Assembly: GCA_019637295.1 (NCBI GenBank)
Contig: JAHBVX010000002.1
Span: forward strand, 124,001-188,000
Origin: Polyangiaceae bacterium
GTDB taxonomy: Bacteria; Myxococcota_A; Polyangia; Polyangiales; Polyangiaceae
Direction of reading: 5' to 3'
Length of the DNA stretch: 64,000 nt
Both the position numbers and the translations under genes were made by a program. Positions 36,664 through 40,609 of the stretch are shown here, piece by piece. The notes beneath the pieces were generated by a model. It worked only from the letters and a program-made list of their open reading frames with translations, did no database searches and had not been told where the DNA came from. Each line of letters opens with the position of its first letter. Position 1 is the first letter of the stretch.

Positions 36664-37545
36664 ATGCGAAAGCTCATCACCGCGACCGTTGCCTCGTTGG
36701 CCCTGGCCGCACCCCTGTTCATCACCGCTCCCGCGAAGGCCGACCTCTCGGCGTGCGGCAACATCAAGGTGGAAGCCAGCGCAAAGTGCGAGTTCGTCGC
36801 AGAGGGTGGCTGCGAGGCGAGCTGCACCGAGCTGAAGTTCGAGGCAGCGTGCGCCGCGGAGCTGCAGGCCAGCTGCGAGGGGAGCTGTCCCCAGCTGCCG
36901 AGCGTGGAGTGCTCGGGGAGCTGCGAGGCGAGCTGTCAGGGTAGCTGCGAGGCCGATCCCGGCAATTTCAGCTGCCAAGGCAGCTGCGAAGCGAACATCG
37001 ACGCGGACTGTAACGCGCAGTGCGCCGGCTCCACCGGCGAAGGCAAGAGCGAAGCCGAGTGCAAGGCGTCCTGCAAAGCGACCGCGACGGCGGAGTGCCA
37101 GGGCTCCTGCGCCGGGACCCCGCCCACGGCGAGCTGCGAAGGCAAGTGCGCCGCCTCCTGCGAGGGCAAGTGCACCTACGACTCGCGCCTCGAGTGCCAG
37201 ATCGACTGCCAAGCCAAGGGCCACGCCTCGTGCAAGGCCGAGCTGCAGGGCGGCTGCAGCGTGAACTGCAAGGCGGGCAAGGCCGCCATGAACTGCGACG
37301 GCCAGTACGTCGACTACGGCAACAACGCCAAGGCGTGCGCGGACGCACTGAAGGCCGCCCTCCAGATCGAGGTCACCGGCAGCGCTAGCTTCAACGCCGG
37401 TTGCAGCGGCAACAAGTGCGAGGCCGAAGCCGAGGCGAGCGCGGGCTGCGCGGTCGCTCCCGGTACGAAGACTGGCGACCTGGCGCTGCTCGGCGCCCTC
37501 GCCGCGCTCGGTGCGGCGTTCGCCGGCCGTCGCCGTCGCCGCTAG
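36664..37545 (+). CDS. Cysteine-rich MYXO-CTERM exported protein
   Basis: 293 residues from ATG 36664, behind AAGGAGAG. The signal TATVASLALAAPLFITAPAKA is followed by about 33 Cys in the mature chain. From residue about 30 to 210 they come in short C-x-G/A-x-C steps: CEGSCPQL, CSGSCEASCQGSCEAD, CQGSCEAN, CQGSCAGT, CEGKCAASCEGKC. The C-terminal end, AGCAVAPGT, hydrophobic helix and AGRRRRR, is a MYXO-CTERM tail. Such a protein should be heavily disulphide-bonded or metal-loaded on the surface. The spacing resembles keratin-like or metallothionein-like repeats, but no homology claim is made. Followed by a strong terminator. Confidence 0.83.
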   Translation: MRKLITATVASLALAAPLFITAPAKADLSACGNIKVEASAKCEFVAEGGCEASCTELKFEAACAAELQASCEGSCPQLPSVECSGSCEASCQGSCEADPGNFSCQGSCEANIDADCNAQCAGSTGEGKSEAECKASCKATATAECQGSCAGTPPTASCEGKCAASCEGKCTYDSRLECQIDCQAKGHASCKAELQGGCSVNCKAGKAAMNCDGQYVDYGNNAKACADALKAALQIEVTGSASFNAGCSGNKCEAEAEASAGCAVAPGTKTGDLALLGALAALGAAFAGRRRRR

Positions 37546-37608: not shown

Positions 37609-38640
37609 TCAATCCGCGGGCACGGCCGGGCGCGGCAGCTCCAGGGCCGCGCCGCCGTCCGCAGCCGCCGGCTGGAAGTCGAGCAGGTAGCCCGCGTCCC
37701 TCAGCCGCGGCAAGAGCGAGGGCAACGCCTCCATCGTGCCCGCGGCGTGCATGTGCAGCAGCACGACCGCGTCCGGACGGACCTGCCCGAGGACGGTGCG
37801 CTCCACGTCCACCGCCGGGGTGTCCTGCCAGTCTCGGCTGTCGATGTCCCAGAGAAAGACGTCGTAGCCGAGCTCGCGAGCGATGCGCTCCACTCGCTTG
37901 TCGATCGCCATCAGCGGCGGTCGGAACAGACGGCAGGTCCCGTGTCCCGCGCCGTTCTCGATCTCGAAGCGAATGAGGTCGTCGGGCAGCCCGAGGGTCA
38001 GGTTGCGGTGACTGAAGGTGTGATTGCACACCCAGTGTCCTTCGTCGACGGCGCGCTCCACCCAGTCCTTGCGCTGGCGCGCCCAGCGCCCCGTCGGAAA
38101 GAAGATCACGCGTGCCTCGTGTTCGCGCAGCACGTCGAGCAGTCGGTCCGCCTGCCGTCGGTCCTGCGGTCCGTCGTCGAACGTCAAGATGACGCGCTTG
38201 CCCTCTCCGGGGACCACGGCCCTCGGCTCGGGCACCTCGGTACGAAAGCCGAACTCCACGCGCGGCTCGTCCGGCAGCTCGATGGTCACCCGCTGCGCGC
38301 GGCCCCCGCGCCAGCGTGTCTCGGGGGCGAGCACGAGCTGCGTCGGGCTCTCCCAGTGGCGCCGAGTGGGCACGTCCGGCTCGAGGGTGACGGTGACTCG
38401 GTCGGCCGGGGCAGGGGCGGACAAGGTGACGCGCACCGGCTCGCCGACGGGCACGCGCTCGCCGAGGGGCGACACACCGATCACCCGCGCGCGAGGTAGG
38501 TCCGGTGGCGTCGTGCCCCTACCGGCCGCGGGCGAGGCAACGGTGACGAGCTCGGCGGCGACCGCGGGGAGCAACGGGGCTGGCGTGTCCGCGGGCAACC
38601 ACGGGAGCGCCAACGAGAGCAGGGAGAGCGGGAGCCGCAC
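37609..38640 (-). CDS. Polysaccharide deacetylase (NodB/CE4) with N-terminal beta domain
   Basis: 343 residues from ATG 38640. The N-terminal signal-like segment LPLSLLSLALPWLPADTP is followed by about 110 residues of beta-type sequence (VGEPVRVTLSAPAPADRVTV, TQLVLAPETRWRGG) with no recognised motif. The CE4 domain starts near 165: VILTFDDGPQDRR (motif 1), WVCNHTFSHRNLTL (motif 2, the two His), CRLFRPPLMAIDK (motif 3), DVFLWDIDSRDWQDT (motif 4) and VVLLHMHAAGTMEA (motif 5, catalytic His). All catalytic blocks are intact. Exported deacetylase of peptidoglycan or polysaccharide. It differs from the enzyme at 18446 in having the extra domain in front. Confidence 0.87.
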   Translation of the reverse strand: MRLPLSLLSLALPWLPADTPAPLLPAVAAELVTVASPAAGRGTTPPDLPRARVIGVSPLGERVPVGEPVRVTLSAPAPADRVTVTLEPDVPTRRHWESPTQLVLAPETRWRGGRAQRVTIELPDEPRVEFGFRTEVPEPRAVVPGEGKRVILTFDDGPQDRRQADRLLDVLREHEARVIFFPTGRWARQRKDWVERAVDEGHWVCNHTFSHRNLTLGLPDDLIRFEIENGAGHGTCRLFRPPLMAIDKRVERIARELGYDVFLWDIDSRDWQDTPAVDVERTVLGQVRPDAVVLLHMHAAGTMEALPSLLPRLRDAGYLLDFQPAAADGGAALELPRPAVPAD

Positions 38641-38728: not shown

Positions 38729-39895
38729 GTGCGACCGTACTGGCCTGTGTTGTGGGCGCTGCCGCTGGCTTCCTGCCAGCACTGCGCGCCTCCCAGCACG
38801 CCCGACGACCCCAAGCCGGCGGCCGTGCCGGCGCCAATGGTGTCCGTGGCGCCTCCGCCGACGCGAGTCGGACCTCCCCCGGCGGTCGACGCGGCAACGG
38901 CACGACCACCGGCGCTGCTGGCGCCCAAGGCGCCTGCTCGCCTGTGGAAGTCGCCGCCGTCGCCCGCCCTCGCGGATGCGACGTGGACCGGACCCCTCGA
39001 CCCCAAGCTGGACGCCGGCTGGCTCGCGCGGCTGGCGGGCGCGCCCATCGAGTCGGTGACGCTCAACCGAGGCGGCTCGAGCATCACGCTGCGCGCCCGC
39101 TTCGCCGACGGGCAGCGCGCGGCGCTCAAGCCCGAGCAGCGCCGGTGGCGCGTGGGGCATCGCGCGGAGATCGCGGCATATCACCTGGATCGCGCCCTCG
39201 GCCTCGGTCGCGTCGCGCCGGTCGCTGGCCGCAGGCTGCCGCACGCCGAGCTGCGCGCGCACCTCGTCGCCTCCGGGGCCGACGGCGAGTGGCTGGCTCG
39301 CTTCGACGACGAGGTCACGGTCCGCGAGGGTGTGGTGGAGGTCGCCGCCATCGCCTGGCATTCGCGAACCCTGGTCTCGGTGGAGCCACCCCGAGACTGG
39401 CTGGACGGCCTGAGCGCGGACGCGCCGCTGCGCCCAGCGCTCACGCCGCGCCTCGGCGAGTGGTCCGACATGCTGGTGTTCGATGCGCTGATCGACAACA
39501 CGGATCGCTGGTCGGGCGGAAACATCCTCGGCCTGGGTAAGGACGGACCGCTCATCTTGCTGGACCAGGCCGCAGGCTTCAATCCCACGCGGCGCGAGCC
39601 GGTGCTCGACCGCCGCGTGCAGTCCCTCTGTCGCTTTCGCCGCGAGACGGTGGCCGCGCTCGCCGCGCTACGCGCCGGCGGCGCGGTGAAGCTGCTGTCC
39701 ACCTCCCTGGACCACGACGCGCTCGCGCCGGTGCTCACGCCGGCTCAGCTCGCGAGCTTCGACGGTCGCAGCGAGCTGCTCGAGCGCCACATCGAGTCGT
39801 GCGTCGAACGCCTGGGCAGCGAGCGCGTCCACACGCTGCAGTCCCCGCCCCTCGACGACGCCGCGGCGGACACGAGCCCAGAGGCGAGTCACTGA
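38729..39895 (+). CDS. Lipoprotein with a FAM20/four-jointed-like kinase fold (putative exported kinase)
   Basis: 388 residues from GTG 38729. The signal ends LPLASC (lipobox). A Pro/Ala-rich spacer (25-75) leads to a domain with AALKPEQRRWRVG (Lys134), AEIAAYHLDRALGLGRVAPV (Glu147), VFDALIDNTDRWSGGN (Asp259, Asn265) and LILLDQAAGF (Asp279). The order and spacing match the catalytic Lys, helix Glu, DR loop and DFG-like Asp of the FAM20C/four-jointed secretory kinases. This is inference from motifs by eye. If right, it is an ATP-binding enzyme outside the cytoplasm, raising the question of its phosphate donor. Its last seven bases overlap the convergent gene. Confidence 0.68.
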   Translation: MRPYWPVLWALPLASCQHCAPPSTPDDPKPAAVPAPMVSVAPPPTRVGPPPAVDAATARPPALLAPKAPARLWKSPPSPALADATWTGPLDPKLDAGWLARLAGAPIESVTLNRGGSSITLRARFADGQRAALKPEQRRWRVGHRAEIAAYHLDRALGLGRVAPVAGRRLPHAELRAHLVASGADGEWLARFDDEVTVREGVVEVAAIAWHSRTLVSVEPPRDWLDGLSADAPLRPALTPRLGEWSDMLVFDALIDNTDRWSGGNILGLGKDGPLILLDQAAGFNPTRREPVLDRRVQSLCRFRRETVAALAALRAGGAVKLLSTSLDHDALAPVLTPAQLASFDGRSELLERHIESCVERLGSERVHTLQSPPLDDAAADTSPEASH

Positions 39896-40497
39896 TCCTT
39901 GGCCGGGTCGCGTCGCTCGAGCTCCCGGCGCAGGCGCGTGTTCTCCGCCCGAAGGCGCGCGCGCTCCGCGTCGGCCGCGGCGAGCAGTCGCTGCACCTCG
40001 GCCCCCCGCTCACGCTCGGCGAGCACGAGTTTCTCGTAAGCGTGGCTCAGCCGTCTGGACTCGGGGGACCACTTCGCAAAGTACAGGGCGACCGCCGCTG
40101 CCAGCGAAGCAACGAGCACCGCCGCGAGCGAGACGGCGAGGCGGCGTGACGCGCGGGCCTTGGACTCCTCCGTCAGCTTCCGCATGCGCTGAGCGTGCGC
40201 GTGACGGCTCTCGAGCTCCTCGAGACGGGCGGCGGCCTCCGCCTCGATGCGGGCTCGCTCCACCGCGGCGAGGCGCAACGCGTCGAGGCGAGCGGACCGC
40301 TCCCGCACGGAGAGCTCGGCCTGGCGCCGCACCTCCACCTCGGCCCGCTCCTGCCGCATGCGGATCTCCGCGAGCACCCGGGCCTGCTCAGCCTCGGCCC
40401 GGCCTCGCTCGGCCGCCTCCGCTCGCAGGCGCTGCTTCTCGAGCGCCTCGAACCCTTTGAGTGAGAATACCAGGGGAACCTCGCGCATGTCGGCCAT
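39889..40497 (-). CDS. Coiled-coil protein with one membrane span
   Basis: 202 residues from ATG 40497 with GAGGTGG eight bases upstream (a GTG at 40509 is possible). After VPLVFSLKGFEALEKQ come about 100 residues rich in Arg, Ala and Glu with heptad character (EAEQARVLAEIRMRQERAEV). One membrane span follows (LAVSLAAVLVASLAAAVALY, near 124-143) and a second coiled coil (RLRAENTRLRRELERRDPA). No enzymatic motif. Possibly a scaffold or tether between membrane and cytoplasm. Codon use and position suggest a genuine gene. The 3' end overlaps the convergent kinase-like gene by seven bases. Confidence 0.72.
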   Translation of the reverse strand: MADMREVPLVFSLKGFEALEKQRLRAEAAERGRAEAEQARVLAEIRMRQERAEVEVRRQAELSVRERSARLDALRLAAVERARIEAEAAARLEELESRHAHAQRMRKLTEESKARASRRLAVSLAAVLVASLAAAVALYFAKWSPESRRLSHAYEKLVLAERERGAEVQRLLAAADAERARLRAENTRLRRELERRDPAKDQ

Positions 40498-40609
40498 GGG
40501 GTACGCCACCTCGGCCCGCTCGGCGGACCGCCTGAGGCATGAGACAGCCGACGGGGCCCGAGTCTTTGACTGAAGACGCGGGAGGCGTGGCCTGGGACTG
40601 AGCGGATGC

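Follow-up and report, generated by a model that had tools for sequence, protein, structure and literature searches.

A predicted FAM20-type lipoprotein kinase in a member of the Polyangiaceae, with an active site that appears wired differently from that of animal FAM20s

The window, by which we mean the whole 64,000-nucleotide stretch of Polyangiaceae bacterium DNA analysed here, encodes a putative lipoprotein whose C-terminal ~300 residues are, judged by sequence and predicted structure, a FAM20-type kinase domain. FAM20 kinases make the secreted phosphoproteins of animals, FAM20C acting at S-x-E, and prime proteoglycans, and the window protein is, at the level of sequence and model comparison, a clear relative of these Golgi kinases for secreted proteins and sugars, with an active site that is wired differently. 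We infer that its substrate and site of action lie outside the cytoplasm. The accessible portion of a survey of Legionella, human and amoeba kinases places the FAM20 cluster among the eukaryotic- or Metazoa-specific ones (PMC9758233), and no description of bacterial FAM20 proteins, including FAM20 in myxobacteria, was found in the literature searched, which lay outside subscription papers. The gene, its parts and its divergent neighbour are as follows.

37609..38640, minus strand: polysaccharide deacetylase, divergent neighbour (Pfam PF01522, E 6.6e-24)
38729..39895, plus strand: gene for a putative FAM20-like lipoprotein kinase of 388 aa, starting with GTG
38729..38776, plus strand: putative type II signal sequence at the N-terminus, lipobox L-A-S-C16, read by eye
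38777..38959, plus strand: Pro/Ala-rich linker, aa 17-77, from the sequence
38960..39853, plus strand: kinase domain as modelled, aa 78-375 (pLDDT 92.5, pTM 0.92)
39128..39130, plus strand: Lys134, aligned to FAM20C Lys285 (ion pair)
39167..39169, plus strand: Glu147, aligned to FAM20C Glu311 (ion pair)
39503..39505, plus strand: Asp259, aligned to FAM20C Asp458 (catalytic)
39521..39523, plus strand: Asn265, the catalytic-loop Asn of canonical kinase folds, which animal FAM20s lack in the alignment
39563..39565, plus strand: Asp279, aligned to FAM20C Asp478 (metal)
39629..39631, plus strand: Cys301, in the alignment column of the second Cys in the CC motif of FAM20
39800..39802, plus strand: Cys358, predicted to pair with Cys301 in a disulfide (C341-C400 in Hydra Fam20)

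A first-pass annotation had proposed a FAM20C- or four-jointed-like kinase fold from short motifs, and these are correctly placed, with Lys134 in ALKPEQ, Glu147 in AEIAAYHLDRAL, Asp259 and Asn265 in DNTDRWSGGN and Asp279 in LILLDQAAGF. Profile similarity to kinases, on which the annotation had staked its claim, was overwhelmingly to FAM20. The PF06702 (Fam20C) model scored 52.7 bits over aa 241-367 of the open reading frame (E 5.7e-14; curated cut-off 26.8 bits), phmmer against PDB sequences returned FAM20C as top match (E 9.2e-15), and a profile built from 19 bacterial relatives (A1) covered the whole domain of human FAM20C at E 1.1e-40 and matched the xylosylkinase Hydra Fam20 (PDB 5xom, 5xoo) at E 5e-33; its best match outside FAM20 reached only E 0.12, and PI4KII E 0.34. 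The model of the related FAM198/GASK1 family (PF15051) matched the window protein itself at E 0.0093-0.017, under its curated cut-off, and in an NCBIfam scan of the kinase open reading frame no model scored above its cut-off. None of the searches returned a model or structure of four-jointed.

The structural comparison with FAM20C that the annotation had suggested likewise returned a FAM20 fold: 286 residues superpose on FAM20C (PDB 5yh3, 5yh0) with an rmsd of 2.9, Z 27.2 and 26% identity, which would indirectly place the named residues in one pocket. The first 28 Foldseek matches of the model to the PDB were all FAM20 entries, and by VIA-align the nine best of the matches listed were FAM20 entries, which superposed over 276-288 residues (Z 26.1-27.9, rmsd 2.8-3.0), Hydra Fam20 at Z 27.8 and rmsd 2.8 over 276 residues. 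PI4KII (Z 16.8), CtkA (15.2) and HipA (about 11; 11.5) share the kinase-like fold, but their scores fall far under those of FAM20, and actin-fragmin kinase scored 12.4. Membership in the FAM20-like superfamily is thus as firm as sequence and predicted structure allow. Chance occurrence of the motifs is ruled out by the PF06702, phmmer, A1 profile and structure matches, and a generic HipA or PI4K relative as nearest kin was rejected, both being far lower by profile and by structure.

The N-terminus, MRPYWPVLWALPLASC, reads by eye as a type II signal peptide with the lipobox LAS-C16, and a hydrophobic N-terminal segment ending in Cys can be seen, also by eye, across the clade to which the protein belongs (the window and loci L051-L061, 12 rows). 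Our self-written strict lipobox expression, which includes a hydrophobicity cut-off, flagged 19 of the 69 open reading frames of the window and missed the kinase, with a hydrophobicity of 1.12 against the cut-off of 1.2. The protein is probably lipid-anchored in the envelope.

The genome searches covered the phylum. Matches at E <= 1e-3 occurred in 39 of 59 genomes (the window's own and relatives), with close orthologues (E <= 1.1e-66) in 7 of the family's 37 genomes, counting the window's own; the A1 profile matched 81 of 282 genomes of the phylum, many of them multi-copy, and PF06702 matched 27 of the 282, with 22 above cut-off. A contig scan with two short peptide patterns, a basis on which the resulting list is no measure of spread, returned 46 loci, nearly all titled Myxococcota or Deltaproteobacteria MAGs and two from Acidobacteria. 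The window together with 42 of these loci (L077, L082, L084 and L086 excluded) forms the alignment A3, and among its 43 members the models matching at E <= 0.01 were PF06702 (36), FAM198 (21, the best at 9.8e-7), HipA_2 (4) and PI3_PI4_kinase (2). Cargo of mobile elements was considered and set aside, as tblastn of plasmids and phages gave no match at E 1e-3; a scan of viral contigs with a single kinase sequence returned no relative. The own genome holds one other copy that we found, a distant one (L098:13-2112, plus strand) encoding a 699-aa putative lipoprotein with a formylglycine-generating-enzyme-like domain (PF03781, E 6.8e-9) and a divergent FAM20-like kinase domain (A1, E 1.5e-33).

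We then compared active sites across 57 bacterial rows (the 43 of A3 and 14 chosen from L013-L050, with L014 and L092 being nearly one sequence) and five animal FAM20s. In FAM20C, according to the accessible part of its description, K285 and E311 form an ion pair, D458 is the catalytic Asp, D478 binds metal, and E306, from a FAM20-specific loop, is an indispensable Mn ligand (eLife 06120); K271 is given as a second phosphate-binding Lys in the accessible part of eLife 23990. The counterparts of K285, E311, D458 and D478 are all present in the window protein, and conservation among the bacterial rows is near-complete: K134 in 55/57, E147 in 56/57, D259 and R260 in 57/57, N265 in 56/57 and D279 in 57/57. 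The FAM20 active-site match claimed by the annotation hence stands for Lys134, Glu147, Asp259 and Asp279 and fails for Asn265, which does not belong to the FAM20 pattern: in this column no animal row has Asn, the five showing T, T, M, S or a gap.

Other columns also separate the two sets. The ion-pair Lys and Glu lie 13 residues apart in the window protein and in 54 of the 57 bacterial rows, versus 26 in FAM20C and 24-26 in the animal rows; the FAM20 loop bearing Glu306 is absent from the window protein. At the E306 position, where the alignment within the loop is uncertain to the residue, animals have E, E, E, Q and D; bacteria have mostly A, S or T, the window V142, and only two of 57 an acidic residue, rising to 11 of 57 if any acidic residue across the stretch aligned to aa 137-146 is counted. 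L094 and L095, the two acidobacterial relatives, sit on a long branch; where they align to this loop, they carry an acidic residue. The K271 column holds K in all five animals and T120 in the window, with R or K two residues further on in 52 of the 57 bacterial rows. The Asn265-type loop of the bacterial rows we take to be the canonical kinase-fold loop. From the E306, K271 and N265 columns it would so appear that the bacterial enzymes retain the canonical catalytic loop, and that in animal FAM20s a metal ligand comes from a loop peculiar to these enzymes.

The window protein also lacks the Cys-rich middle segment of FAM20C and three of its four disulfides, while the C-terminal Cys pair is kept (C301, C358) together with a helix insertion (within the stretch aligned to aa 310-328); it is, unlike FAM20C, a putative lipoprotein. 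Compared with Hydra Fam20, which is Fam20B-like, T114, Q115, H301 and K321 are replaced by S117, S118, W261 and A282, the Tyr148-Tyr151 loop is missing, and none of the alignable Gal-Xyl contacts of Fam20B is retained (Y214 and Y253 unmapped). Because the tested features of both enzymes fail, the protein is by sequence neither a FAM20C nor a FAM20B, and is better placed in a branch of FAM20-like proteins whose metal site is more canonical.

The Cys pair and helix insertion bear on where the animal enzymes came from. In the solved structure of Hydra Fam20 the residues aligned to C301 and C358 form a disulfide (C341-C400), and both traits occur in 12/12 clade rows and 5/5 animal FAM20s; among the 45 other bacterial rows none has both Cys (L045 has one), and the helix insertion is lacking there too. 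A tree from all columns splits animals plus the clade from the rest with support of 99/99, and after removal of the trait columns and of six divergent rows 943 of 1000 bootstrap trees retain this split. By AU test, a tree joining the animals to a neighbouring group of bacteria was not rejected in the reduced set (p 0.31), nor were two alternative placements in the full set (p 0.26 and 0.30), and the trees are unrooted, with five animal rows that deviate in composition on a long stem (2.4). The link of animal FAM20s to the clade is therefore suggestive at the sequence level. A tentative and rather doubtful scenario is that the animal kinases have their source in this myxobacterial clade, whose envelope lipoprotein kinase would have been transferred into an early animal ancestor, in which case the canonical Asn would have been lost in the animal line, its job taken by the new Glu306 loop, and the C-lobe disulfide and helix insertion would be bacterial heirlooms. 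Transfer from animal to bacterium, the opposite direction, we think less likely, since the clade is without the animal active-site features.

With moderate confidence, from sequence and model, we favour a lipid-anchored cell-envelope kinase of FAM20-type fold that would move the gamma-phosphate of a nucleotide, presumed to be available there, to a hydroxyl of an envelope or secreted substrate. In such an enzyme K134 and E147 would position the nucleotide phosphates, N265 and D279 would hold metal ions as in canonical kinases, replacing the FAM20-specific Glu306, D259 would act as base, and a C301-C358 disulfide would brace the C-lobe; the Cys pair, lying where the solved FAM20 disulfide sits, fits an oxidising compartment. 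Against such a kinase count the scarcity of ATP outside the bacterial cytoplasm and the missing counterpart of Glu306. The substrate would be a surface polysaccharide or glycan more probably than a protein, a guess prompted by the divergent polysaccharide deacetylase at 8 of the 11 clade loci that could be assessed and by the order of events in animals, where the glycan kinase Fam20B arose before Fam20C; the loss of every alignable Gal-Xyl contact counts against it.

A kinase that acts on proteins of the envelope or secretome, as FAM20C does on secreted ones (eLife 06120, accessible part), is a somewhat unlikely alternative: FAM20C does outrank the xylosylkinase in the profile search (E 1.1e-40 versus 5e-33), but this ranking reflects overall similarity rather than specificity, and the F299/F300 loop and F354/P357 segment through which FAM20C dimerises have no counterpart in the window protein by alignment. 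We consider it unlikely that the protein is a pseudokinase or allosteric partner resembling FAM20A, in which, as far as the accessible part of eLife 06120 states, Gln at the E306 position abolishes activity. That position is indeed non-acidic in 55 of the 57 bacterial rows, the window's among them; however, all canonical catalytic residues, Asn included, are kept across rows of about 30-55% identity, a near-invariance that argues against a pseudokinase, and the single, distant second copy in the own genome offers no close active partner. Other chemistry on an envelope substrate, such as AMPylation, is very improbable: some kinase-fold proteins do AMPylate or glutamylate (PMC10870513, accessible part), but the catalytic Asp is present in 57/57 rows and the solved structures nearest to it are those of phosphotransferases or of FAM20A.

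The window and loci L051, L052, L053, L055, L056, L058 and L060 have the divergent deacetylase next to the kinase gene; it is missing at L057, L059 and L061, and L054, at a contig end, is outside the count. L051-L053 say little on the pairing because a larger block is conserved there too, and a functional reading is weakened by an acyl-CoA dehydrogenase gene that stays near the kinase in the same seven loci as the deacetylase; the pairing may be plain synteny. Also near the kinase, at 36664-37545 (plus strand), is a gene for a Cys-rich repeat protein whose C-terminal tail, hydrophobic and rich in Arg, resembles a surface-sorting signal; it is found likewise in L051-L053, L056 and L060. A convergent gene (39889-40509, minus strand) overlaps the kinase open reading frame by 7 bases; its product is coiled-coil, apparently membrane-bound and without a Pfam match, and has relatives in the same place in L051-L053. 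In a sister group (L065, L067, L069-L072, L074, L079, L081-L084 and others), a PAD_porph (agmatine deiminase-like) gene lies 3' of the kinase in 16 of the 46 loci, about 13 bases past it in L067, a carbon-nitrogen hydrolase follows in 15 and an ornithine cyclodeaminase-like gene lies upstream in 14, a neighbourhood that by gene content is a polyamine-type operon. A lipoprotein-like gene follows the kinase at 3 of the 46 loci (L062, L066, L093); the one directly downstream in L062 (6960-8819, plus strand) has an IgGFc_binding domain (PF17517).

A bacterial FAM20 branch suggests extracytoplasmic phosphorylation in bacteria, and with its apparently different metal site it provides an expressible, mutable outgroup with which one can test how the FAM20 active site arose. 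The myxobacterial kinase may in this way reveal the form that animal Golgi kinases had before animals had them.
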